Positions 14,951 through 29,696 of a stretch of 64,000 nucleotides of DNA are shown piece by piece; the stretch's first letter is position 1; each line of letters opens with the position of its first letter. A model generated the notes under the pieces. That model had not been told where the DNA came from, made no database searches, and saw only the letters and a program-made list of their open reading frames with translations. Source of the stretch: Erysipelotrichales bacterium (GTDB lineage Bacteria; Bacillota_I; Bacilli_A; Erysipelotrichales; Erysipelotrichaceae). Made by a program: the position numbers and the translations under genes. The DNA is taken from NCBI GenBank assembly GCA_910576345.1, contig CAJTIT010000010.1, forward strand, positions 1 to 64,000. The letters are read 5' to 3'.

Positions 14951-15185
14951 GCCCTTTTGCGAAATTTCTTAATTTTTTTTAATAAATTTGTTTTTGAATA
15001 ATAATTTAACTTGTCCGATTTTTCAATTTATGAAAGATTTAAACTAAAAAATTCTATAATTTATGATGATACAAATTATGAAAAACGATCTAAGATCCAT
15101 TATGAAACTGATAGCGCATTGAAATATTGTTTTTATGCATAAACTAAGGCGTATTTCATCGTTTTAAAAGATGCGAGAAACACAC

Positions 15186-15233
15186 AAAAACCGACTGAAA
15201 AAATACCAAAAACCGACCGTGATGTGCTATAAT
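15186..15233 (+). promoter_or_regulatory. Regulator promoter with two direct operator-like repeats
   Basis: AAAAACCGACTG (15186-15197) and AAAAACCGACCG (15208-15219) are direct repeats 22 bp apart, about two helical turns, so both face the same side of the DNA. An extended -10 TGCTATAAT (TATAAT at 15228-15233) follows, and the second repeat covers the -35 zone. The layout fits autoregulation of the downstream HTH protein. Similar sequences occur upstream of the peptide gene and the rhs operon. Confidence 0.6.
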
Positions 15234-15265
15234 AGCGATAGCAATGAAGAAAGTAGGGTATGTAT

Positions 15266-16561
15266 ATGCGGATGCCTGAGGAAAGACAAAAAATAGTGGG
15301 AAAATTAATCAAAGTTCATCGTAAAGAAAAACTGAGAATAACGAATTCAGCTAAATGGACACAGCGTGGTTTCAGCAAAGATGTCTGCTCTCCTACATCA
15401 CTTATAAAATTAGAAAAAGGCATGTTGCCAAGATTTTATGATGTTTTTGAAAAGATTGCCAAAAAGTTTGAATGGGGTGTAGCATATGATCCATTTGTTG
15501 AAAGAAAGATCGAACGTTATATCGTTCAGGTGAGGGGCGCTTGTGAATTAGGTGATGTGGAGATGATTCAGCAAGCGCTTAATATTTGTTTTGCGGCTTT
15601 GAAACCTGTGAAGGACTGCATATGGTACAATGATTGGTATACGATGTTGAAATTGGTTGAGAACTATTATATAAAAGAAATATTTGTTGAGATGGAGCAC
15701 CGCGATTATTATCATGAAATGATGGAATTACATGGTGGAATATGGGAAGAACTTATGAAGAACGTATTGTTTAATTCTGCGTTTATGGATGTCCAAAGTT
15801 CTGATTATCGAGATCTGTATCGATATTATGGCTTTGATCAAATGAAGGATACTTGTTATAACTATATTAACGGTATGTTGTTTAGTCTATCAAGAAATAA
15901 CAGTGAGATGTTTAAAAAACTATTTAAAGCTGCAGAAAGAAGATTTTTGAAAAAGAAAAACTTTATCCGATTGATGGATGTATATAATTTAGCATTGATC
16001 TTTGCCGGCTTTTTCGATAAAAATGATATTGATGATTTGGTAGGTAAATTAGTTAAACTTGCAAGCATGAAAAGTTTACCCAAGACGAAAGTAGCAGATT
16101 TATATTTTATTTTAGGAACGATTTATTATGATTTAAAAGAATATGAAAAAGCCTTGAAGATATTAGAGGGCTGCTACGAGTATGATGTAAATCGTTCTCA
16201 TTGTCCATATTTACTTGTAGGCAATATTAATCATTTGAGAGAGAAAGAAGCCAATATTCCGTTTTATAATGAAGAAGAATTGAAAAAGACTACAGTTGAT
16301 AATCAAAGAATTTATCGTTACTATGCCATGGATAAAGGAGATTTCACATGTTATGAAAAGCAGGAATATCTGATGAATGAAATATTACCGACGATAGGTC
16401 CGGAAGATGATTTAACATTGGATGTGTTGGCCAGTGAGTTGGATATGTTGGTTGTAAAAACTAAAAAAATTGAAGATGTGGCAGTCTTTAATGAAGTGCG
16501 AAACTCGTTACTGTACGGAATCGTCTATCAAACACCCCATGAAAAGACAGAGGATTTATGA
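15266..16561 (+). CDS. HTH regulator with helical repeats, RRNPP-like (PlcR/Rgg type)
   Basis: Predicted peptide-responsive transcription factor of 431 residues. Residues about 12-70 form a divergent Cro/C1-type helix-turn-helix (RGFSKDVCSPTSLIKLEKG). The rest is all-helical, charged sequence with TPR-like repeats (for example ADLYFILGTIYYDLKEYEKALKI, here split by eye into two helices), the architecture of RRNPP regulators that bind imported signal peptides. The ATG at 15266 lies seven bases after AGGG; an ATG at 15260 is too close to the site. A 44-residue secreted peptide gene follows 480 bp downstream on the same strand, as in plcR-papR loci. The closest subfamily cannot be decided by eye. 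Confidence 0.65.
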   Translation: MRMPEERQKIVGKLIKVHRKEKLRITNSAKWTQRGFSKDVCSPTSLIKLEKGMLPRFYDVFEKIAKKFEWGVAYDPFVERKIERYIVQVRGACELGDVEMIQQALNICFAALKPVKDCIWYNDWYTMLKLVENYYIKEIFVEMEHRDYYHEMMELHGGIWEELMKNVLFNSAFMDVQSSDYRDLYRYYGFDQMKDTCYNYINGMLFSLSRNNSEMFKKLFKAAERRFLKKKNFIRLMDVYNLALIFAGFFDKNDIDDLVGKLVKLASMKSLPKTKVADLYFILGTIYYDLKEYEKALKILEGCYEYDVNRSHCPYLLVGNINHLREKEANIPFYNEEELKKTTVDNQRIYRYYAMDKGDFTCYEKQEYLMNEILPTIGPEDDLTLDVLASELDMLVVKTKKIEDVAVFNEVRNSLLYGIVYQTPHEKTEDL

Positions 16562-16578: not shown

Positions 16579-17044
16579 GACAAATTTATTGAATAAACGC
16601 TATTTTTAAACGTTAAAAATCATTTATATGTCACATGAAAACAGAACTGCATAATTTTGTAGTTTTTCCTTTTAAAAATATTGAAAAACAGGCGGTTTTT
16701 AGAATTTTTAAAAAATAAAGCTGCAAAGTTGTGCAAAAATAAGGCATTTTTAAAATATTTCTGAAATGAATATAATTGCTTGATTATATGAATAAAAATT
16801 ATAAAATTTGGATATTAAAATGCAAATTTTATCTAAAATAGGGTAGCGAGTCGGTGAAATGGGGTGTGAAACCCCATTTGAACTGGTACAAGATTGGCAA
16901 AAACACTGTTTTTTGCCACTTTTTCAGTTTCTGTTACAACTCACGGTTTTTCTATTGTATCAGGTAATAATTTTGTTTATGATTTAGACGTGGGAATTAG
17001 TAGCGCTACGATGTTCTCTTTTACAAATGAAGGAGGAAATCGAA
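16579..17044 (+). promoter_or_regulatory. Long leader and control region of the peptide gene
   Basis: No gene is seen in these 466 bp. A reverse-oriented AAAAACCGCCTG lies at 16689-16700 and a shorter AAAAACCG core (reverse) at 16944-16951, matching the regulator operator repeats. Two hairpins follow: AAATGGGGT/ACCCCATTT (16857-16879) and GGCAAAAA/TTTTTGCC (16896-16917), the latter followed by CACTTTTTC and so resembling an attenuator. A TATAAT near 16775 could start the transcript. An 80-codon frame from 16894 overlaps the peptide gene in another frame and is rejected. Confidence 0.45.
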
Positions 17045-17179
17045 ATGAAAAAATTATTGATCTCTGCTTTATGCGGTTTATTCTTATTCAGCGCATTTGC
17101 GGGTGCTGCAGCGAAACCAGCAAATGGTGCGGCTGATGATACGGCGATTTCTAGAAAACGTATCCCGGTTAGATGCTAA
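17045..17179 (+). CDS. Candidate 44-residue secreted signalling peptide precursor
   Basis: A short gene with a perfect AGGAGG (17031-17036) eight bases before the ATG. The product starts MKKLLISALCGLFLFSAF, a classical Sec signal peptide with a cleavage-like AGAAA around residues 19-23. It leaves a mature peptide of about 20 residues that is basic at its end (ISRKRIPVRC) and finishes with a cysteine. Its size, export signal and place after an RRNPP-like regulator fit a PapR-like pheromone precursor; the terminal cysteine could allow dimerisation or modification. Alternatives are a small bacteriocin or surface peptide. The gene is seen clearly; the signalling role is inferred from context. Confidence 0.65.
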   Translation: MKKLLISALCGLFLFSAFAGAAAKPANGAADDTAISRKRIPVRC

Positions 17180-17620
17180 TCGCATTTATTAAGTAAATCT
17201 ATCACATTCGGGGAAGCAATGGGTAGGGTAGAAAAGATGAAGAGGAAGTTATAAATCTTCTGTTTAGCGTTGATTTAAATCAGGTCCATAACAAAAGCGT
17301 TAACGACACTTGTGTCGAAATTGGTACTGATTTACGCATGCCGATATTATAAATCATAATATCCTATACCTAGTATGCGTTATATAAGAGTGTTATGGTT
17401 TCGTTTGAAGAAGAAAGCGTTCTGAGAAATGGATAATCCTAATTGTTACAGGTGAAGATGATTCCAACAACTTGTTTAAGTGATCGCTCAGTAAGAATTT
17501 ATATGCTTCATGAATGATTTGAAGTGAGTTTGGTAAGAGGAAGAGGCGGTTTGGTAAAAACTGCCTGCTGCCTTATCCCCTCTATAACATGCGTGATTAA
17601 CAAAGAAAAGGTAGATGAAT
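17180..17620 (+). other. Intergenic region between the peptide and Spo0A-like genes
   Basis: No gene longer than a few codons is supported. Near the 3' end, GGCGGTTT and AAAACTGCC (17546-17566) form an inverted repeat. The segment AAAAACTGCCTG (17556-17567) is one base from the AAAAACCGCCTG site before the peptide gene, so this may be another operator or a hairpin in the leader of the next gene. Confidence 0.4.
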
Positions 17621-18040
17621 ATGAAGAAGAGCGAAGACAGAGTTCTCGATAAAAAAACAAAGAATCGTATGTTGAGGTCTATGGATATTGATAAAAACGA
17701 TATTCCTAAAGTGGTGAATGAATATTTCAGTTATATCAATTTTGACAATCATCTGAAAGGAACGCAAGAATTGAAGACAATCATCGTTCACTGTTTTACA
17801 AACAATATCGTTACATTCAAACTAAATCAGATTTATCTGGAGATCAAGGATGAAGTACATAATAGTATAGTGAATATTGAAAAAAATATTCGTATGGCAT
17901 TGTGTACGTTTGCCCTTAATTCACTGGATGACGTTATGGAATTATACAAAGATATGATTTCAGCAGATGAAAGCAAAGTAACAGCGAAAAAGTTTATCTT
18001 GCAGACCTTGAAGATTCTAAGAGAATTGGTAGAAGATTAA
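17621..18040 (+). CDS. Stand-alone Spo0A C-terminal-like DNA-binding protein
   Basis: A 139-residue protein that looks like the effector (DNA-binding) domain of Spo0A without a receiver domain. Matches by eye include NHLKGTQELKTII against the Spo0A HIKGYLYLREAI region, a following LNQIYLEIKDEV stretch, and NIEKNIRMAL against the recognition-helix sequence RVERAIRHAI. The C-terminal helices (TAKKFILQTL) also align in position. AAAGG lies nine bases before the ATG at 17621; the ATG at 17615 is too close. The lack of a phosphoacceptor domain implies control by level or partner rather than phosphorylation. It sits between the peptide gene and the toxin operon, so it may regulate either. Confidence 0.6.
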   Translation: MKKSEDRVLDKKTKNRMLRSMDIDKNDIPKVVNEYFSYINFDNHLKGTQELKTIIVHCFTNNIVTFKLNQIYLEIKDEVHNSIVNIEKNIRMALCTFALNSLDDVMELYKDMISADESKVTAKKFILQTLKILRELVED

Positions 18041-18089: not shown

Positions 18090-18532
18090 CGTTTCTTTTT
18101 TAAATACATTAATCAAGTGTAGAAAAATAACTACTCAACGATAATTTTCTATGATAGAATACATACAAAGAGGTGATATCTATGTTGGACACCACATAGT
18201 ATTTTGAAACATATTCTTGTGATTTTTACGATTGTATCCATAAAAAAACATTCCCTTGTCTCGCGGTCGATATTTGTTTTTTCCTCAGTCGGATTTTTTT
18301 GTTGGAAAATCTTGTACATTTCAAAAACCGACTTACAAAACAGGTGGTTTGTGATTTAATAAGTGCGTAATATTCTGCCAAATGAAGATCAGGACTTTAC
18401 CTGTCATAACGCTGAAAACCAATTCAGACAGGACGCATTCATTCTTACAGCGGGCAAAATATCGTAATCCGTGTTCTGATTTCACTGTTCAAACAACTAC
18501 ACTTCAAATCATTTCATATTACAGGAGAAGGT
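18090..18532 (+). promoter_or_regulatory. Upstream region of the rhs toxin operon with operator-like sites
   Basis: This 440-bp stretch has no sizeable gene. A five-codon frame at 18182 (ATG to TAG) has a good AGAGGTGAT ribosome site and could be a leader peptide. AAAATCCGACTG is present in reverse at 18286-18297 and AAAAACCGACTT in forward orientation at 18323-18334. Together they form an inverted pair of the motif that occurs as a direct repeat before the regulator gene. Several T-rich runs follow. The exact promoter of the operon is not obvious. Confidence 0.45.
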
Positions 18533-20542
18533 ATGAAATATTTTAATAAGGTAATGTTTGGTTTGTTGGCAATTTGTTTGGGGTTGCCAACGTATAACAC
18601 ATTGGTTTCTGCAAAAGAAGAAACACAAAAGACGATATCCAATACCGATACGATTTATTATCAGCTACAAAACGATATCGTTGAAAACAACATGAGGGTG
18701 ACCATGCCTTTTGACGACAGTCTGAGTGACTATCATGTGACATGGCGCATTCTGGAAGAATTCAACACGGACAACAGTCCGATCTATTTCCAAAACGAAG
18801 ATACGAAGAAGGTGTCTTCGATCACAACGGAATTCAATACGGTGAATTTGTATTTTCAGGCTCCGGGGACATCCACGGTAGAAGTCAGTGCGTGTCGAAA
18901 CGACGATCCCGGAACATGCATGCCGAAAAAAGTGTTTTATGTGAATGTGGCGAATCCGCAGTTGTCCTTTGCGCAGGACATGAGTGAACTTCGCTATTTA
19001 CAAGAGGAAGATACGTTATCACTCAAGTTGAACGAACAGGACGGTATCGTATGGGAAGAAGCATACGATATCACGTGGCGCGTGGAAGACGACACCAAGA
19101 TCAAACTGTATGATCCGCTAAACGATCGTTATACCAATACATTGCGTCATGCATCCGCACAAGCCAATATCCAAAGCATCGCAAAAGGAAACAGCGAAGT
19201 GCGGGTGGACATCGTGCATAAAGAAAACGCAAACATCAAAGCGAGTGCGATACTGGACGTTTATGTAAAAGACCTATTGGTAAATACCGAAATATTTGTC
19301 AACAACGATGACATTAAAATAGAACAAGGGTGCTTATTGCCGTATTATACGGATAAAAATGACAGTGAGAGTGTCAAAAATACTGCGACCAATCAAGGAT
19401 TGGCAGCTGGCTTTATCGATGCGAGAGGACAGGTGAATTTTGATACATACCGTCATTTGATCAAGTTCAAAATCAATGACGAAAGCGTTTTGCGTTACAC
19501 ACCATATGTAAAATACAATGGCAGAAACATACCATTGGATCAAGCGAATGCGGAAGCGAAAAAAGGCAGGATCTATTATGCGTTTGAGGGCTTGAAGCCA
19601 GGTTCCACTACCATCGTATTCAGCTATGGCGAAAAAACCGTCAGTGTCAAAGTCAGAGTCAGCGAAAAACTGAACAATGAGATCGCATTGGATCCGGTAG
19701 GGGAAGTCAAAAGCGATTCGATCGATTTCTTTGTATCCGAAGATGCATTAGATAGTGTCACAAGCGATGATAAGCCAAGCGTTGTGCTGAATCTAACGAA
19801 AAGCGCTATCGACTCTTTGATCATTTCCAGCAAACAGCCAAAAGTGACCGTGAACATACGTATACCGGCGGCGGTACGTAAAAAAGCGGATATGGAACAG
19901 ATCTTGATATCCAAGAATACGATGGAAGCGGCACGAAATTATAAAAAGGAGATCGTGTTCCGCATTACGAATGAAAGCGATAAGTTATTATATTCATGGA
20001 GCTTTGAAGGAGCGAAGATCCGTGAAGTCGGATATGATCTGAATCTGGCCATAGAAAAACGCAGTATCAAGGAAGTATATAAAATCGATATTTTGGCACA
20101 GGATGCGAATGCGACAGTGGTGAACTTCAAACACGAAGGAGACTTACCGACAAGTGCTAAAGTGAAACTGTATGTGGGTGACATCTATCAGCCAAAAGAC
20201 GTATTGTACTTCTATTATTACGATCAAGCAAATAATCAGCTGCTTGACGAAGCGAAAGAAAACAATGGGTATGTAGTAGATAAAGAAGGGTATGTACAAT
20301 TGGAGATCACTCATTGTAGTGACTATGTACTGACGACAAAAGCATTAAAAGAAGAAGAACTGGAAAAAGGTAAAGTAAATGAGTTTCTTGATCAGTCGAT
20401 TAATCCTGCCCAAAGCGATTCACTGTTGGGATTCACCGGGGCGAATACCGGCGTCATACCAAGTCTGATCTTGTTTCTTGTATTGATGATGCTGGCAGAG
20501 CTGGGATATGTCTTTGCGAAGAAGCATTATTTCGGAAAATGA
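18533..20542 (+). CDS. Secreted surface protein with C-terminal membrane anchor, first gene of the rhs operon
   Basis: A 669-residue extracellular protein. A signal peptide covers about residues 1-26. The body is beta-rich and resembles repeated Ig-like or Big-type domains, with stretches such as VTWRILEE and ITWRVEDD recurring about 150 residues apart. The C-terminus has LLGFTG, then a hydrophobic segment (about 640-660) and the basic tail KKHYFGK. That order resembles a sortase signal, but LGFTG is not canonical LPxTG, so simple membrane anchoring is equally likely. Its stop overlaps the next start (ATGA). Linkage to the rhs gene suggests a role in presenting or releasing the toxin. No exact family is recognised. 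Confidence 0.6.
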   Translation: MKYFNKVMFGLLAICLGLPTYNTLVSAKEETQKTISNTDTIYYQLQNDIVENNMRVTMPFDDSLSDYHVTWRILEEFNTDNSPIYFQNEDTKKVSSITTEFNTVNLYFQAPGTSTVEVSACRNDDPGTCMPKKVFYVNVANPQLSFAQDMSELRYLQEEDTLSLKLNEQDGIVWEEAYDITWRVEDDTKIKLYDPLNDRYTNTLRHASAQANIQSIAKGNSEVRVDIVHKENANIKASAILDVYVKDLLVNTEIFVNNDDIKIEQGCLLPYYTDKNDSESVKNTATNQGLAAGFIDARGQVNFDTYRHLIKFKINDESVLRYTPYVKYNGRNIPLDQANAEAKKGRIYYAFEGLKPGSTTIVFSYGEKTVSVKVRVSEKLNNEIALDPVGEVKSDSIDFFVSEDALDSVTSDDKPSVVLNLTKSAIDSLIISSKQPKVTVNIRIPAAVRKKADMEQILISKNTMEAARNYKKEIVFRITNESDKLLYSWSFEGAKIREVGYDLNLAIEKRSIKEVYKIDILAQDANATVVNFKHEGDLPTSAKVKLYVGDIYQPKDVLYFYYYDQANNQLLDEAKENNGYVVDKEGYVQLEITHCSDYVLTTKALKEEELEKGKVNEFLDQSINPAQSDSLLGFTGANTGVIPSLILFLVLMMLAELGYVFAKKHYFGK

Positions 20543-21177
20543 AAGAAAGATGGAAACAGATCAAGAAACTCGCATTTCTGATATTTTTCACATTACAATG
20601 CTGTCTGCTTGTGATCTTGGTCGTTGATTATTATCGACTGGATGAAACAGGCACAAAAGATCCAAACGATCCGGATGTGCCAAATGTGTTCGACGATACA
20701 TGGGAAGAAGAGAGCGCGACAAAAGATGAAGAAGAAACGAAACAACAAGCAAACGCAATCAAAAAAAACAGTACAAAGAATAATCGAAGACCGCTTCATT
20801 CTTTGTATCTGACAACGAATTATCAAGAGATCCCGTCTGATCCGATACAAGATACGCTCAAGCACAATTATCTTTATGAACATCCAAGAGATAACATCGC
20901 TTATATCCAACGATTGATCTTACAAGCGGACGTATGTGAAAGCGCATGGTATGAACAAGTGCGTTCGATGTGTGAAATTTTGGATCGCCAAAACGACGTA
21001 TGGCAAAATCACGGCGACGAGCAGGTGCGAACCCTTGCCTATCGTCAAACCAATCTAAGTCTGGCTTTGAAGGAAATGGCACAACATACCGATGAAGACA
21101 GTATTGATCTGGTCAAACGATGCTTTGAAGATTATGAAACGTACTACTTCGATAAGTTCGGGGGGTACATGGAATGA
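20539..21177 (+). CDS. Membrane-anchored protein of unknown function, second gene of the rhs operon
   Basis: A 212-residue protein with a single N-terminal transmembrane helix (about residues 11-30) after a short basic leader. An acidic, disordered linker rich in D, E and T follows (about 35-70), then a helical extracytoplasmic domain. The orientation suggests most of it lies outside the membrane. The start overlaps the previous stop by four bases, and its own stop overlaps the rhs start by four bases, so the three proteins are translationally coupled and probably made in fixed ratio. No recognised domain; an accessory or chaperone role for the Rhs protein is inference. Confidence 0.55.
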   Translation: MKERWKQIKKLAFLIFFTLQCCLLVILVVDYYRLDETGTKDPNDPDVPNVFDDTWEEESATKDEEETKQQANAIKKNSTKNNRRPLHSLYLTTNYQEIPSDPIQDTLKHNYLYEHPRDNIAYIQRLILQADVCESAWYEQVRSMCEILDRQNDVWQNHGDEQVRTLAYRQTNLSLALKEMAQHTDEDSIDLVKRCFEDYETYYFDKFGGYME

Positions 21178-24100
21178 AAAAGTTGTTGTTAAAGATATTG
21201 TGCGCATGTATCTTGTTCAATCAATTTGAACCGCTGACCGATTGTTTGGCGCATGAATGGGATCGAGTGACCATCGCAGAAGAGGAAGGCGAAGGTCTTT
21301 CGGAAGAAAAACAAACAAAGGAAGAAACAAAAGACGAAGAAGAAACACAAGGCGAACAGGAAACGATCGCCAAAGAACCGGAGATCATACATGAGGCACA
21401 AACGTACAGTGCCGATATGGAGGAAGTATCGAAAAGAACCGAGTACTCCAAAACGTATCGATTGGGAAACGGGCTTCATGTCAGTGAGCAGTATTTTGAA
21501 CCGATCCATAAGAAAGAAAACGGGAAATGGATCGAAATTGACAATACGTTAGAGAAAAGCAAATCACGAAGCGCAGGTCCTTCATATCAAAACAAAGACG
21601 GCGCCTATGATTTTGCCTATGAAAACGAAACTGTTTCGCTGGAAAATGAGAACGGTGCGCACTTGGAAATACGCTATCCGGATATGGATTTGTCCCATCT
21701 CAAGACCAAAGAGAATGCGATGTATTTTAGCGATGTCTATGAAGATGTGGATATGCAGATCGATGTACGAAACAACCAAGTCATACAAAATCTGATTTTC
21801 AATGAAGTAAAAGAAGACAGCGATTATGCATTTGAGATCGTCAGCGATGAAAAAATCGAACTGAAAGATGAAAACATAAACATCGGTGACGATTTCACAT
21901 TGATCCGTCCGATGATTCGTGATGCGGACGGCAAAGAAAGCACGAAAATAAAATATCGCTTGGAAGAGGGCGAGGATGCGACCATCGTCCATGTGGAATT
22001 TGCGGAAGATGTAAGTACGTTCGCATTGCCGTATCGATCCATGACACCGGATGTGGTCACGCATGATGGTGAAACAGATATCATCGGTAGTTATATCCGA
22101 TCCCAATCGTATCCGTGGGAAAACAGTTATTATTATCATCTGTTTGTCGGAAACGATATCAACCAATATTCCGGGGTACCGGGCGGCGTCGGTTTGACGA
22201 GAACCTTCATCAATGTGGCCATACCCAATATCGGCAACGATCAAAAAGTCATCAGTGCGGATCTGAAACTATACAAAAAATACATTTATGACAATGAATG
22301 TACGAGCGTCCATGTGTCTACGACAAATCATCTCAGTGATATACGAAGTGTGACATGGAACAACCAGCCGTCTAGTCTGACCCGAATTTCCACGAACAGT
22401 TTTACGATCGGCGAAGGATACAAAGATTTCGATATCACGAAATATGTGCAAGATTATATCAAAAACGGCACAAAGAAAACATTGGTACTTACATCTGCGG
22501 ATGAATCGGTCGCAACTAGCGGCAATGTGTTCTACAATGCCATAGAAACACCACCAACGCAACGTCCCAAACTGGTGATCACCCATCAAGACGATGCGGA
22601 TGTCCGATTGGATTTGGACATCAATACGAAAGATCGGGAATTTCGCGTTTATACAAGAGATCCGGACGGCTTTCAGGCCATCAGTTTTGACGGTATCGCA
22701 AAACCGAACAGCGTTGCGCATTTCAAGCTTCATGAACAACAAGCGAACGGCAGTTATGTGTTCTTGAAAGATTACACGGCCAATGTCGATCCGCATTTCG
22801 TCGATCAAATATTCGTCAAGCAACCAATACCAGGTGCCCAGACGTATACGAAAGTCGATGCGAACTATACGACGAATTATATATATGCAAGTGACTTTCC
22901 GCATTTGGATCGCATGTTCAAATTTCAATTCCAAGTCGTAAAGGGAAATGAAAAATCAACGGTCAACGATACCGACAGTTTTATCATTTATGAAGTAAAA
23001 AACGGCGATACTTTGCGTTCAATTTCTGCATATTACGGTGTAAAGACAGCGACGATTATTGCGGATAACCGTTTGAAAGGCACCACGGTCAAAGAAGGCG
23101 ATAAGTTATTGATCCGCTTTTTGACAGACAATACGAAAGTATCTCCGGATGCCTATCGACCGCCGGTAAAGGTCAGCAGTTATACGGCAAAATATGTCCC
23201 TATGGGCTATTGCGTCGGATGTCATGTATTGGACCCAATCAATGCGGCCAGTGGTAACTATCATCATTCCAGCAAGGACTTCACATTAAAAGATTATGAT
23301 GAATTGTACTTGGAGCGAACACTCAATTCGACGGCGGAAAAAGCCAGTTCGATGTTTGGCAATGGATGGAGTACGAATCTGGAACAGTATTTGTCACATA
23401 CGAAGGATGGCAGTGTACTGTATTTTCGTGGAGATGGACGCATAACGAAGATCACGAATGGAAAAGCGGATCCAAAAGAGAAGATCACATATAAAAAAGT
23501 AGGAAACAATACAGAGATCTATGACAAAGATACACAATTGACCTATGTGTTCGATGCTTATGATACACTCGCACAGATCAGAACCAGAAACAATCATTCC
23601 ACCAATATTCATTACGATGATTGGGGCATGATCACCCATATCGATCTGGGAACCAAAAAGATCACGTTCTCTTACAATGTATATCATATGGTCAATCAGA
23701 TCACCTTGCCCGATGGCTCAAACGTACAATATGAGTATGACGGCAATCGGAGACTGACAGCCTTCATCGATCGATCGGGCAATCGTGAAACCTATGCATA
23801 TGATGGAGATGGGCAAATCGTTGAAGTCGTTGACAAAGCAGGGAATCGATTGGGACGCAACGAATATGACAGTCAAGGACGCGTCATCAAGCAGCGTGAT
23901 GCGAGTGGACAGATCTCTACGATGAGCTATTCCGGCAATCGGGTACAGGTCAATTATCCGGATTCTTCGCAAATGACGTATGAACAAAATAACTACGACA
24001 TTACCAAGATCACGGATGAAAACGGACACAGCCGCTCCTTTACTTATGATAGCCATTCCAACATCATATCGGAAACCAATGAAAACAATGAAACGATCCG

Positions 24101-27100
24101 CTATACCTATGATGCCAATGATAATCTGACCAAAAAATCAAATCCAGATGGAACCTATGAACAATATCGCTATAACAGTGTGGGAGATGTCACATACAAA
24201 CGAAATACAGATGGTGTGGAAGAACATTATGCATATGATGCCAACGGAAACATCATCGAACATCGTGAAACGAACAAAACGACAGAGATCTATACGTATG
24301 ATACGAAAGGAAGACTGATCCGCAAGCAAGGCGATCAGAACATATCCTATACGTATCAAGGCAACGATCCTTATCCGAGTAAAGAAATACGCAGCGATGG
24401 ATTGACGAAGACCTATACGTATGATGCGATGGGAAATCTGACAAGGGAAGAGGACAATCAGGGAAGATTCGTATCCTATACCTATAACAAGCAGAATCTC
24501 GTCACAAAACGCACAGATAACTTGGGAAGTGAAACAAACAAATACGATGCGAACGGAAACGTCATTGAATATACGGATAAAAATGGTGTCAAAACGATCA
24601 CGACCTATGATGCCTTACAAAGAGTCAAATCGATCAATAAGAATGGCTTGACGAAGTCTTATACGTATGATGTGAAAGGCAATGTGAAAAGTGAAACGGA
24701 TGAACAAGGCATTGTCACAAGCTATACCTACGATAAAAAGGGCAACCAATTGACGAAGACGATCAATGGCAGTACGACAAAGTATCATTATGATGCCAGA
24801 AATCGTTTGATCAAGACAGAATATCCGACCGGCACGAATGAAACGAAAACATATAAATTTGACAATGTAATCGAAGAAAAAAACGTGCATGGATTGAAAA
24901 CGACGTATACCTATGACAATAAGAACCGTTTGACGAAGACGACGTATCCAAATGGTGAAACAGAAACGAATACATATTCCGGAACGCTGTTGTCAAGTAA
25001 AAAAGACGTGGATGGTATCGTAACCCATTATACGTATGATGTGAAAGGTAACGTCATCAAAGAAGAAATCGTCAAAGGCAGTGAGAAAATCACTACGCTG
25101 ATGTCCTATGATGCCAGAAATCGTGTGAATACGCAGACCAAAGAAGGCGTCAAAACGACCTATACGTATGATGTCTATGATAACCAATTAAGCGAAAATG
25201 TGAACGGTCGCATCACAAGGAAAACCTATGATGTGATGGGGCGCATGACATCGGAAACGGATGCGCAAGGATATAAGACATCGTATGCCTATGACAAGAT
25301 GGGCAATCAAATCAAGACCACTTTGCCTAATGGCGGCGTCAAAGTCAAACAGTATGATGCGATGAATCAGTTGATATCGGAAACCGATGAACTGAATCAT
25401 AAGACTACATACAAATACAATGCCAAAGGACAAATGGTGGAGAGTAAGAATGCGGATCAAGTCGTAACGAAATACAGCTATGATAAGTGGGGCAACGTAT
25501 CGGAAGTATTCATCAATGATACATTGATGAAAAAAGAAACATATGATGCCCATAACCGCAAGATCAAAGAAGAGACACCGATAGAAGTTAAAACCTATAC
25601 CTATGATCGATATGATCAAATCATCAAAGAAACGAATGTGACGAGTGGCCTTGTCATTGAAACGACCTATGATGATTATGGGAATGTTTTAAGGACACAA
25701 GACAATGGGGATCAGCACACGGAAAACACGTATGATGCCAAACAGCGTCTGATTCAAACGGTGGACAGTTACGGTCGGACATCAACGACCGATTATGACA
25801 TCTTTGGAAGAGTCAAGAAACAAGTAGATGGAACAGGACAAACGATCGAGTATACCTACGATAAGTTTGACAATGTGTTGACACAAAAAGACACGCATGG
25901 AAATATACAAAGTTATGTCTATGACATCTATCAAAACAAGGTAGAAGAAACAAGTGATCTGATCCATAAGACATACAAGTATGATACATTGAATCGATTG
26001 ATTGAAACACATGATGAGAAGACCAATACCTCATCAAAGACGACCTATGATTCCATGGGTAATGCGATCATTGAACAAGATGAACTTGGTAATAAAACAG
26101 AATACAAATACGATAAGAAAAATCAAGTCATAGAAACCAAAGATGCCTTGGGACATATCGAAAAACAAGAATATGATCTACAAGGCAATGTGATCAAGAC
26201 GATTCATGCGGATGGAAGTTATAGCGCATCAAGATACAATGCCTATAATTTGATCAGTGAAGAAGTGGATGAGCGAGGATTTACCACAACGTATACGTAT
26301 AACGACAAACTCCAACTCATCAAACAAGCAGACAAACTGGGCGGCATCACAACGATCACCTATGATAAAAAAGGCAATCCAACACAAGTCAAATTGGATG
26401 ATGGATCCATCTATCGAAAAGAATACGATCTATATGGAAGAGTCATCAAAGAAATCGATCCAAAAGGCAATGCGAAAGAAACAAAATACGATGCCTTAGG
26501 CAATGTGATCGAAGAAGTACATCCATATAAAACGATCGTCAATGTGTATGATGAAAAAGGAAATCTGAAACAAGTCAAAGAAAACAATCGATTGGTCACA
26601 AACAATACATATGACAAATACAATCAATTGATCTTAACGAATGACGCATTGAATCAACCTACCTATCATACTTATGACCAATATGGAAGAAAAATCGAAA
26701 CATTTGATAAAGGTATTGAAACAGTCTTCACATATGATGATCGAAATAACTTGATCAAGGAAATCCAAAATGATGAAAAGATCATCACATACCAATACGA
26801 TATCTTAGGAAGAGAAGTCGAACAGAAGATCAATGATGTCATTATATCCAAGACAAGTTATGACAAAATCGGAAATCAAACAGAAACATATGATTTAGGA
26901 ATTAAAAAACGTTATCAATATGATTCCAGAAACCGATTGATCAAAGAGCTTTCACAGACAAGCGAAAACAAATTTGTCGTAACCAAAGAAATGAAATACG
27001 ATAAGAGCGGAAATGTGAAAGAAGAAATCAACGGAGAAGGCGATCGTATTCAATACACGTATGACGCCAATAACAATGTCACAAGTAAGACAGATGGAAA

Positions 27101-29696
27101 CGGCAATACGGAAAAGTATGCCTATGACAAATTGAATCAGTTAGTCACTGTAGAAACAGCGAATGATCGGATCATCCATTATCAATACGATGAGAATGGA
27201 AACAAAAGCGCAGAGTTCTTCAACGAACAGGAAACGAGATATCGCTATGATAAAGCGGATCGCTTGATTGAAGAAAGCGATGCGACAGGCAGTGAAACGA
27301 CAACGTATGATGCATTTGACAATGTGATCACATTCAAACAAAAGAACGGAACGATCATCGAACAAGAATATGATGCATTGAATCGTATGACAAGAATGAA
27401 CGATCGAGTGTTCACCTATGACAAACAAGATCACATCATCGAAGTAAAGAATGCGATTGGATCACTGTCCATGATGTATGATGATTTTGGCAATCTGATC
27501 GAAACGACGGATCCCAATGATTCAACGGTACAGTATACATATGATATCCAAGGCAATAAGACAAGTATCACATATCCAAATGGAGAAGTCGTATCTTATA
27601 CCTATAATGATCGCAATCAATTGATGCAGGTAAGTAAGAATGAACGCGTTCTTGCGATGTATCAATATGATATCCGAGGAAACGTATCCAAACTCACCCA
27701 AGACAACATTGAAACAAGTTATACCTATGACAATGCGAATCGTGTTACACGCTATTTGACGAAACAAGATGGTAAAGTCTTACATGATCGAACCTATACA
27801 TTTGATCATAACGACAACATCATCAAAGAAGTCGTAAACGGTAAAGCAAACCTTTATACGTACAATGAAAACGATGAACTGTCAAGCAGTGAGAAATATA
27901 TCGACGGAAAACTGATTAAAACAACGTATCAATTTGACATATACGGAAACAGAGTAGAGTCATCTAGTGATGGAGCCTATAAGAAGTCTTCATACAATGA
28001 TAAGAATCAGTTAACCAAGATCGAAACGAATGAAGGAAACAACTATTTCCACTATGACAAAAATGGAAACATCACAGCGATCTATTATGATGACGGATAC
28101 AAGGAATCCTTCAAATACGATGAATACAATCAATTGACAACGATCAAGAACAATCTGGATAAGACGATCACATATGAATATGACGGTATGGGAGAGCGTA
28201 TATCCCAGCATGAGCAAGACGATACGATCTATCAATTGAAGTCATATTATGAGGTAAGCGAAGAACTCAACCTGCAGGATTATCGAGATGGCTTGGAAGA
28301 GTCAGATATGGAGGAAGCCTTTGCGGCATTAAAAGCGCAGGCAAAAGCAAGACAAGACAATCGAGGATGTACAGTCAAGGAAACGAAGTATCGAACCCAT
28401 ACTTATCAAAAAGAAGATATCGATAAGACGTTTGTATTGGATCGATCAGTAGAATATAGTCAAATCTTACAGGAAGGCGAAGAACAAAGCATTTATGGAT
28501 TGGCAAGACTTGAAAGTGAAGACACAAAATACATCACTGGAGTTAATGACACGATCAATCTAAGCATCACAGAGAATGAAGTAACAGAGTATACCTATGA
28601 TGATTATGGCAACAGTGAAGATATCGAAGAAGGCTTTGGATACAATGGGGAACATAAAGATAACAGTGGATTGATCTACCTAAGAGCGAGATATTATAAT
28701 CCAAGGATCGGAAGGTTCTTACAGATCGACTCTTATAAAGGAGAAGACAATGCAATAGCGACAAAGAATCGCTATACGTATGTGGCAAACAATCCATATA
28801 AGTATGATGATCCTAGTGGTAATGCATACCAAAGCAATGGTAAGAATAAAAACACTTCTTCTAAAAAGCAAGGTACGATTAATGGAGTTCTGGCAATGGT
28901 ACAGGTTGGGGGAAATGTAGCTCAACAAGGGATTGAAAAACTTAAAGCAGAACAGGAAAGAAAGAAAAAAGAGAAAGAAGAACAGGAAGAATATAGAGCA
29001 AGAGCTTGGATAGAAATGTATAGTAATCAGGTTAACAGGGATGGATATGAATACAGCGAAAAAGACTTCAAAAATTCATTAATATTAAGTTCGATATTTG
29101 GATACATTGGTTACAATGATGAAATAATGGGAGCTGTATTAGATGCATTAGGCTTGTTAAAGTCATTTAAGGATTTAAGAATTACTAATAATCGTACCGA
29201 TATTAAGATATATGCATGCGATATACCAAAAGATGCAAAGGGAACACACATGCTTAATAGACCTATGGACGGCGGTAGATCTATAGAGTATCAAAATGGG
29301 ACTATAAAGAAAGCACCATCTATAAAAGATGAAAAAGCGTGGCAATTAAGATATCTTTTAAAATTATCAAAAGAACAAATGGAATTTGCATATGATTTAG
29401 CAAGGATATTGATTACAATGGGACTGTTAGTTTTATCAGCAGGAGTAGGAGCCTTGCCATTTGGAACAATACCTATAGGTGCCGGGTATACATTTAATTT
29501 GACAAATTTTGCATTTATGTGCATTAATGCTTTGGTGGCAGGACATAATGATTCACGGGATATTGATTCTGAAATAGCATATGCATTAAGCTATCATTTT
29601 GTAGATGGATACAATTCATCTATGTGGTTTACGGCATATTTCAATAAAGACAATCAGTTAATAGCGAAATCAAAACCAAATGTTTTTACAAACTAA
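21174..29696 (+). CDS. Giant secreted YD-repeat (Rhs/WapA-like) polymorphic toxin
   Basis: A 2840-residue contact-dependent toxin candidate. In order: signal peptide (1-27); acidic linker (35-70); WapA-type N-terminal region with a DNRLRE-like domain (about 325-470); LysM motif YEVKNGDTLRSI (about 604-650); DUF6531-like segment (LDPINAASGNYHHS, about 686-760); several dozen YD repeats (about 770-2350) expected to form the Rhs cocoon; Rhs core GLIYLRARYYNPRIGRFLQ to DPSG (about 2488-2551). A 289-residue variable tip (2552-2840) follows. The tip holds a KKKEKEEQEE-rich linker and two hydrophobic segments (about 2744-2791), so it may attack membranes. It starts by ATGA coupling, and a lipoprotein immunity gene follows after 15 bp. 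It is the only intact rhs gene in the window. Confidence 0.9.
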   Translation: MKKLLLKILCACILFNQFEPLTDCLAHEWDRVTIAEEEGEGLSEEKQTKEETKDEEETQGEQETIAKEPEIIHEAQTYSADMEEVSKRTEYSKTYRLGNGLHVSEQYFEPIHKKENGKWIEIDNTLEKSKSRSAGPSYQNKDGAYDFAYENETVSLENENGAHLEIRYPDMDLSHLKTKENAMYFSDVYEDVDMQIDVRNNQVIQNLIFNEVKEDSDYAFEIVSDEKIELKDENINIGDDFTLIRPMIRDADGKESTKIKYRLEEGEDATIVHVEFAEDVSTFALPYRSMTPDVVTHDGETDIIGSYIRSQSYPWENSYYYHLFVGNDINQYSGVPGGVGLTRTFINVAIPNIGNDQKVISADLKLYKKYIYDNECTSVHVSTTNHLSDIRSVTWNNQPSSLTRISTNSFTIGEGYKDFDITKYVQDYIKNGTKKTLVLTSADESVATSGNVFYNAIETPPTQRPKLVITHQDDADVRLDLDINTKDREFRVYTRDPDGFQAISFDGIAKPNSVAHFKLHEQQANGSYVFLKDYTANVDPHFVDQIFVKQPIPGAQTYTKVDANYTTNYIYASDFPHLDRMFKFQFQVVKGNEKSTVNDTDSFIIYEVKNGDTLRSISAYYGVKTATIIADNRLKGTTVKEGDKLLIRFLTDNTKVSPDAYRPPVKVSSYTAKYVPMGYCVGCHVLDPINAASGNYHHSSKDFTLKDYDELYLERTLNSTAEKASSMFGNGWSTNLEQYLSHTKDGSVLYFRGDGRITKITNGKADPKEKITYKKVGNNTEIYDKDTQLTYVFDAYDTLAQIRTRNNHSTNIHYDDWGMITHIDLGTKKITFSYNVYHMVNQITLPDGSNVQYEYDGNRRLTAFIDRSGNRETYAYDGDGQIVEVVDKAGNRLGRNEYDSQGRVIKQRDASGQISTMSYSGNRVQVNYPDSSQMTYEQNNYDITKITDENGHSRSFTYDSHSNIISETNENNETIRYTYDANDNLTKKSNPDGTYEQYRYNSVGDVTYKRNTDGVEEHYAYDANGNIIEHRETNKTTEIYTYDTKGRLIRKQGDQNISYTYQGNDPYPSKEIRSDGLTKTYTYDAMGNLTREEDNQGRFVSYTYNKQNLVTKRTDNLGSETNKYDANGNVIEYTDKNGVKTITTYDALQRVKSINKNGLTKSYTYDVKGNVKSETDEQGIVTSYTYDKKGNQLTKTINGSTTKYHYDARNRLIKTEYPTGTNETKTYKFDNVIEEKNVHGLKTTYTYDNKNRLTKTTYPNGETETNTYSGTLLSSKKDVDGIVTHYTYDVKGNVIKEEIVKGSEKITTLMSYDARNRVNTQTKEGVKTTYTYDVYDNQLSENVNGRITRKTYDVMGRMTSETDAQGYKTSYAYDKMGNQIKTTLPNGGVKVKQYDAMNQLISETDELNHKTTYKYNAKGQMVESKNADQVVTKYSYDKWGNVSEVFINDTLMKKETYDAHNRKIKEETPIEVKTYTYDRYDQIIKETNVTSGLVIETTYDDYGNVLRTQDNGDQHTENTYDAKQRLIQTVDSYGRTSTTDYDIFGRVKKQVDGTGQTIEYTYDKFDNVLTQKDTHGNIQSYVYDIYQNKVEETSDLIHKTYKYDTLNRLIETHDEKTNTSSKTTYDSMGNAIIEQDELGNKTEYKYDKKNQVIETKDALGHIEKQEYDLQGNVIKTIHADGSYSASRYNAYNLISEEVDERGFTTTYTYNDKLQLIKQADKLGGITTITYDKKGNPTQVKLDDGSIYRKEYDLYGRVIKEIDPKGNAKETKYDALGNVIEEVHPYKTIVNVYDEKGNLKQVKENNRLVTNNTYDKYNQLILTNDALNQPTYHTYDQYGRKIETFDKGIETVFTYDDRNNLIKEIQNDEKIITYQYDILGREVEQKINDVIISKTSYDKIGNQTETYDLGIKKRYQYDSRNRLIKELSQTSENKFVVTKEMKYDKSGNVKEEINGEGDRIQYTYDANNNVTSKTDGNGNTEKYAYDKLNQLVTVETANDRIIHYQYDENGNKSAEFFNEQETRYRYDKADRLIEESDATGSETTTYDAFDNVITFKQKNGTIIEQEYDALNRMTRMNDRVFTYDKQDHIIEVKNAIGSLSMMYDDFGNLIETTDPNDSTVQYTYDIQGNKTSITYPNGEVVSYTYNDRNQLMQVSKNERVLAMYQYDIRGNVSKLTQDNIETSYTYDNANRVTRYLTKQDGKVLHDRTYTFDHNDNIIKEVVNGKANLYTYNENDELSSSEKYIDGKLIKTTYQFDIYGNRVESSSDGAYKKSSYNDKNQLTKIETNEGNNYFHYDKNGNITAIYYDDGYKESFKYDEYNQLTTIKNNLDKTITYEYDGMGERISQHEQDDTIYQLKSYYEVSEELNLQDYRDGLEESDMEEAFAALKAQAKARQDNRGCTVKETKYRTHTYQKEDIDKTFVLDRSVEYSQILQEGEEQSIYGLARLESEDTKYITGVNDTINLSITENEVTEYTYDDYGNSEDIEEGFGYNGEHKDNSGLIYLRARYYNPRIGRFLQIDSYKGEDNAIATKNRYTYVANNPYKYDDPSGNAYQSNGKNKNTSSKKQGTINGVLAMVQVGGNVAQQGIEKLKAEQERKKKEKEEQEEYRARAWIEMYSNQVNRDGYEYSEKDFKNSLILSSIFGYIGYNDEIMGAVLDALGLLKSFKDLRITNNRTDIKIYACDIPKDAKGTHMLNRPMDGGRSIEYQNGTIKKAPSIKDEKAWQLRYLLKLSKEQMEFAYDLARILITMGLLVLSAGVGALPFGTIPIGAGYTFNLTNFAFMCINALVAGHNDSRDIDSEIAYALSYHFVDGYNSSMWFTAYFNKDNQLIAKSKPNVFTN

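Follow-up and report, generated by a model that had tools for sequence, protein, structure and literature searches.

A conserved 44-residue propeptide gene and its neighbouring TPR-type regulator as a candidate new RRNPP subfamily in Erysipelotrichaceae

Does a 44-codon open reading frame on a contig of an Erysipelotrichales bacterium encode a real secreted peptide, and, if so, what would the peptide be for? The preliminary description of this locus, made from a 64,000-nt stretch of DNA (hereafter the window), had considered it an overlooked gene for a secreted peptide ending in cysteine, either a new class of signal peptide or a small antimicrobial peptide. Here, the frame is followed through related genomes together with its neighbours, its promoter region and the regulator gene upstream.

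A conserved gene for a short secreted peptide

The forward-strand ORF at 17045–17179 runs from an ATG through 44 codons to a TAA and yields the product MKKLLISALCGLFLFSAFAGAAAKPANGAADDTAISRKRIPVRC. The preliminary description had credited it with a perfect ribosome site and a Sec signal peptide, and both readings held up: AAGGAGG lies 8 nt ahead of the ATG (Table 1), and a Sec-type leader is predicted by a hydropathy rule and by its conservation in the homologues. Among all ORFs of 30–70 aa on both strands of the window, it was the sole case combining a Shine-Dalgarno sequence with a signal-peptide-like N-terminus, versus 0.025 expected per 64 kb in first-order Markov copies of the window, under a screening rule that was drawn up after this ORF had been seen.

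Table 1. Features of the locus, numbered along the window except where a locus handle is given
Feature	Position	Strand	Basis
Two direct repeats CAAAAACCGAC, 22 bp apart, 5′ of the regulator gene; candidate operator	15185–15217	+	Genome count
Receptor-regulator gene, 433 aa; probable N-terminal HTH (about residues 10–75) and TPR superhelix (about 78–420)	15260–16561	+	Pfam, structure model, Foldseek, VIA
Inverted-repeat element upstream of the −35, with terminator-like hairpin at 16895–16918	16845–16943	+	Folding
Peptide-gene promoter: −35 TTGTAT, 17-nt spacer, −10 TATGAT	16955–16983	+	Sequence; position kept in congeners
Palindrome GTAGCGCTAC, candidate operator	17000–17009		Almost every lineage has a palindrome at this position, perfect or nearly so, though its sequence differs
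Shine-Dalgarno AAGGAGG	17030–17036	+	Sequence; 8 nt 5′ of the ATG
Propeptide gene, 44 aa and stop	17045–17179	+	ORF, homologues, codon comparison, SD/signal-peptide screen
Predicted Sec-type signal peptide, about residues 1–23; KK n-region, hydrophobic core, A-x-A near 21–23	17045–17113	+	Sequence, leader conserved in alignments; exact cut inferred
Predicted mature C-terminal signal, about RKRIPVRC (residues 37–44), after A-I-S	17153–17176	+	Place of the variable 8-mer behind the common motif; inferred
Third copy of CAAAAACCGAC, 5′ of the 18533 gene	18322–18332	+	Genome count
Distant regulators beside small secreted peptides	L097:3545; L103:3450; L102:3380; L099, 2561	L099 reverse	

A search of 60 relatives recovered homologues in five of the six same-genus genomes (G002–G006), all of them short ORFs starting at the same MKK, and the sixth genome is only 66% complete. 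When a profile was run against 273 family genomes, the peptide was extended to three further genera, represented by G141 (E 3.8e-13), G066 and G238, the last with tandem copies of the gene, two in number; the remaining matches were mostly signal peptides of larger proteins. The homologues are 38–45 aa long, and by the hydropathy rule all keep the KK n-region, the uncharged hydrophobic core and the A-x-A. Codon differences are concentrated at third positions, and dN/dS is 0.16–0.30 for the three closest species, the tandem copies of G238 giving 0.09; therefore, the gene is under purifying selection as a protein. Because the homologues keep the start, the third-position bias and the low dN/dS, the reading frame is conserved in relatives, as the preliminary description had expected of a real gene, and on this sequence evidence the ORF is a genuine one. 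No paralogue of either the peptide or the regulator was found elsewhere in the same genome.

The two halves of the peptide differ in conservation. The leaders are nearly constant across the homologues (KKLVISALCGLCL), and in eight sequences spanning three genera C10-G11-L12-L14 never varies; the tails are less conserved. The tails carry the motif A-[IV]-S, which in the congeners G002, G004 and G005 takes the form A-V-(A)GI, followed by about eight variable residues (RKRIPVRC, RVCIATTS, RSTAAITC, RSTVGITC, RSTVGITS in G005, RYACRTRIF, PSRIHIKV, HSRIHIKV, SGFGFVIW). In Phr/PapR-like propeptides, the pheromone is described as the C-terminus (PMC9765709, PMC11343458), and the constant leader, motif and variable C-terminal 8-mer seen in the alignments would be the anatomy expected of such a propeptide. 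The tail of the window peptide is basic and polar, unlike PapR or SHP as had been remarked, whereas other species have very short tails of neutral or hydrophobic character. The terminal cysteine, to which the preliminary description gave weight, is indeed present in the window species, G002, G004 and G006, but the other homologues end in Ser, Phe, Val or Trp; by these sequences it is a lineage-specific trait and the emphasis on it is unsupported. A cysteine in an RRNPP pheromone does have a precedent in PapRa7, CSIPYEY (PMC3519770).

The regulator and its pairing with the peptide

The immediate neighbours of the peptide gene are the regulator and a protein with a Spo0A_C domain. By itself, the window regulator matches Pfam TPR_8 at 4.6e-4, below the curated cut-off, while TPR_1 and TPR_2 match all eight members of the regulator family, whose homologues measure 409–444 aa; Pfam thus sees a generic TPR only, and the NCBIfam models do not recognise the protein. 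An AlphaFold2 model built from five natural homologues was of moderate confidence (pLDDT 72.6, pTM 0.50), and Foldseek placed phage Rap and NprR at the top, with a best E of only 0.012. Aligned by VIA over residues 78–420, the model reached Z scores of 16.1 with RapI, 15.9 with RapH and 15.1 with NprR, but the fold alone is supportive and not conclusive, because unrelated TPR proteins reach Z 12–15 against the same model. Sequence identity to NprR is 8–14% in the alignments, a PDB sequence search with the receptor profile gave generic TPR proteins in the 60 matches listed, and a second model, of the G005 regulator, was of lower confidence (pLDDT 64). The N-terminal 75 residues are XRE-like by sequence and poorly modelled (pLDDT 47–75), with a weak HTH_31 match in one family member and a weak PHROG repressor match at residues 19–83; an HTH in this part is probable. 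No match of the regulator to plasmids was found, and a phage origin was rejected, the PHROGs matches being weak only.

The preliminary description had suggested searching for homologues next to RRNPP-like regulators, and they were found there. In all six loci that a contig spans, from four genera (the window, G002, G005, G141, G066 and G238), regulator and then peptide gene are adjacent on the same strand. The gap between them is 483 bp in the window, about 544 bp in G002 and about 541 bp in G005, and 164, 161 and about 142 bp in G141, G238 and G066. In G238, two regulators are followed by two peptide genes, and the G066 regulator is read in two overlapping frames. In G003, G004 and G006, the contigs end between or near the two genes. 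Wherever a contig reaches far enough upstream, no peptide locus without a regulator was found, G004 being ambiguous. The G004 regulator is seen only as a fragment at the end of another contig; a group II intron-type reverse transcriptase lies directly upstream of the G004 peptide gene (L003:35-1258, G004:C3). Speaking against such a pair, G027 and G212 each have a regulator remotely related to that of the window, and no recognisable member of the 44-aa-peptide family was seen there.

Promoter architecture and neighbouring genes

The peptide promoter is followed, roughly 15 nt downstream of its −10, by the palindrome GTAGCGCTAC. Its counterparts among the relatives are TGATGGCGCCATCA (G004 and G006) and TGATGGGCCCATCA (G002, with one mismatch in G005), and in the other genera GTATGCATAC (G141) and ATATGCATAT (G066 and G238), that of G003 being imperfect. 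Summed over eight loci, of which the close relatives are not independent, the palindrome score was 52, whereas 500 Markov sets averaged 41 and never exceeded 48. The window palindrome is a single copy in its genome. A role as regulon-wide operator was rejected, there being no second copy in the genome and none in the neighbourhoods scanned; it therefore supports only autoregulation.

A second candidate operator is CAAAAACCGAC, of which the 2.83-Mb genome has three copies, all in the same orientation and within 3.2 kb of this locus. They connect the promoter of the regulator with the stretch ahead of the 18533 gene; these repeats were not seen ahead of the regulators in relatives. The inverted-repeat element upstream of the −35 folds with a z of −2.8 in the window and in G005, and not in G004 or in G003 copy 2. 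It occupies a regulator–peptide gap about 350 bp longer than in the other genera, and comparison of this intergenic region with Rfam, taken as far as E 1, gave no match. A block upstream of the −35 was considered as an activator box, but the idea is weakened because the block overlaps the terminator-like inverted repeat, and a search of the window with this block gave no excess over shuffles. A second peptide-promoter block in G003, some 350 bp past the peptide gene there, is not followed by a peptide ORF (L020:620-740, G003:C56).

Adjoining the peptide gene on its other side, 17615–18040 (+) encodes a 141-aa protein consisting of a Spo0A C-terminal DNA-binding domain only (PF08769, 5.8e-8), without a receiver domain; nothing matched it in the other six genomes searched from the genus. 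Apart from it, a 285-aa Spo0A-like frame lies at G000:C13. A 0A-box-like TGTCGAA ahead of the Spo0A_C gene was discarded, being in the window no commoner than chance. Further downstream, 18533–29696 (+) encodes proteins of 669 aa and 212 aa with N-terminal hydrophobic segments and then a 2840-aa YD-repeat (Rhs-like) protein, and these genes are a possible target of the regulator.

An RRNPP-type pair and its alternatives

RRNPP systems have been defined by a propeptide of 10–100 aa with a Sec signal peptide and a receptor of 250–500 aa with TPRs, encoded by direct neighbours, the mature peptide being re-imported to bind the receptor (PMC10075063). The present locus agrees in propeptide size, predicted Sec signal peptide, receptor size (433 aa), TPRs and gene adjacency. 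The gap departs from the reference pairs, which range from −50 to 191 bp, and from the default limit of 400 bp in the detector (PMC10075063), since the 483 bp of the window exceeds both, whereas the other genera show 142–164 bp. As in the known RRNPP(A) pairs (Rap-Phr, NprR-NprX, PlcR-PapR, AimR-AimP, QssR, AloR), a small Sec-type propeptide accompanies an adjacent gene for a TPR receptor with a probable N-terminal HTH, the mature sequence is expected at the C-terminus, and tandem propeptide copies occur in one genome (G238). Unlike them, the receptor is missed by the NCBIfam models, the peptide family is new, the gap in the window genus is 483–544 bp, the palindrome stands immediately below the peptide promoter, and the host belongs to the Erysipelotrichaceae.

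Among the individual systems, NprR-NprX, which serves sporulation or necrotrophism, resembles the pair in its long TPR domain and probably in its HTH, NprR being among the top fold matches, although the receptors share little sequence and the peptide is unrelated to NprX. The N-terminus of Rap proteins is a three-helix bundle acting on Spo0F or ComA, with no HTH; that of the present regulator is HTH-like by sequence and poorly resolved in the model. The SHP/Rgg and ComS/ComR pheromones derive from very short hydrophobic propeptides that have no Sec signal and are exported by PptAB, unlike a 44-aa peptide whose leader is of the Sec type and whose tail is basic and polar. PlcRa-PapRa of the B. 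cereus group likewise combines a Sec-type propeptide, a cysteine-containing signal and a TPR regulator; however, the TPRs of PlcRa number five, and PapRa, 93 aa in length, carries its signal internally (PMC3519770), while the present regulator has a longer TPR domain and the signal of its peptide is predicted at the very C-terminus.

In at least four genera, the gene for the secreted precursor stands next to one for a receptor-regulator of the TPR type, so that the precursor most likely supplies the signal of an RRNPP-type pair, and we consider it very probable that the locus is a propeptide–receptor quorum-sensing pair with the 44-aa product as its signal. The strongest competitor in kind would move the signal into the leader: a hydrophobic pheromone would be cut by proteolysis from the conserved signal peptide (LLISALCGLFL region), the tail being a mere spacer. 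Lipoprotein signal peptides are the source of enterococcal sex pheromones, and no part of the present peptide is more conserved than its leader, whose invariant positions are unusual for a plain signal peptide. Yet nearly the same leader accompanies receptors of only about 30% identity, which would leave little room for specificity, the C-G is missing from the G066 leader, and the tails are themselves constrained, with the A-[IV]-S-like motif and the length of about eight residues recurring; we regard this origin of the signal as improbable.

The antimicrobial peptide entertained in the preliminary description would be a secreted product acting on other bacteria under control of the neighbouring regulator, and not a signal. 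A basic, cysteine-ended tail in the window species would suit it, as would one match to a bacteriocin model (NF053514, E 0.071, far below the cut-off), but the neutral or hydrophobic tails elsewhere, which vary while the leader is kept, and the obligate pairing with a TPR receptor speak against it, and no immunity, modification or dedicated export genes were found in the few kb of flanks inspected (window, G002, G005, G141 and G238), so that this proposal falls away as very improbable. Hardly more can be said for a secreted peptide with some other role, for example at the envelope or by acting on some protease of the membrane, controlled by a TPR regulator that answers to another ligand: a membrane activity of the hydrophobic, conserved leader is conceivable, but the variability of the tail, the divergence of the receptor and the tandem duplication of both partners in G238 fit cognate recognition better, and the chance of it is likewise very small.

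Returning to the RRNPP-type pair, the gene, its conservation, its pairing, the RRNPP-like fold and the common promoter architecture are direct observations, from which we infer the following route for secretion, processing, receptor binding and regulatory output. After export through Sec, the 44-aa propeptide would lose about its first 23 residues to signal peptidase, and a second protease would release the C-terminal peptide behind A-I-S, about RKRIPVRC. The accumulating peptide could then be re-imported by an oligopeptide permease, three SBP_bac_5 oligopeptide-binding proteins (Opp-type) being encoded in the genome, and, as fold and linkage suggest, would bind the TPR groove of the neighbouring HTH-TPR protein. 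Binding would alter the attachment of the regulator to DNA at the peptide promoter, where the palindrome near the transcript start could serve autoregulation, and the regulator may perhaps also act at the CAAAAACCGAC sites ahead of its own gene and of the 18533 gene. Within the same frame, a variant that we rate as rather unlikely is that the cysteine-containing leader (LCGLCL) is itself functional, for instance when cut by a dedicated intramembrane protease, or that the C-terminal cysteine serves disulfide-linked or redox-sensitive pheromones in species like that of the window.

The claim of a new signal-peptide class thus survives in a narrower form, as the pair is a candidate new subfamily in Erysipelotrichaceae of the known RRNPP kind, and not a new kind. 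The RRNPP papers examined, the large survey among them, do not name Erysipelotrichaceae in their main texts, and a full-text search found no published description of an RRNPP-type or pheromone–TPR pair from this family, although an unnamed candidate subfamily in the survey supplement could overlap. That survey covered complete genomes only and applied a gap limit of 400 bp (PMC10075063), and long-gap pairs in metagenome-assembled genomes can escape current detectors. The Erysipelotrichaceae are common mammalian gut bacteria, and receptor, peptide and promoter are now in hand for probing density-dependent behaviour in gut communities.

Additionally, more distant HTH-TPR regulators of the same bacterial family (G213, G215, G030) are followed by other, unrelated small secreted peptides, which are rich in Cys and acidic residues, e.g. 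...GCSVEHPELCIEPAGCTAPDCMFG. These are probably further peptide–receptor pairs, and their occurrence suggests that such pairs are widespread in the family.
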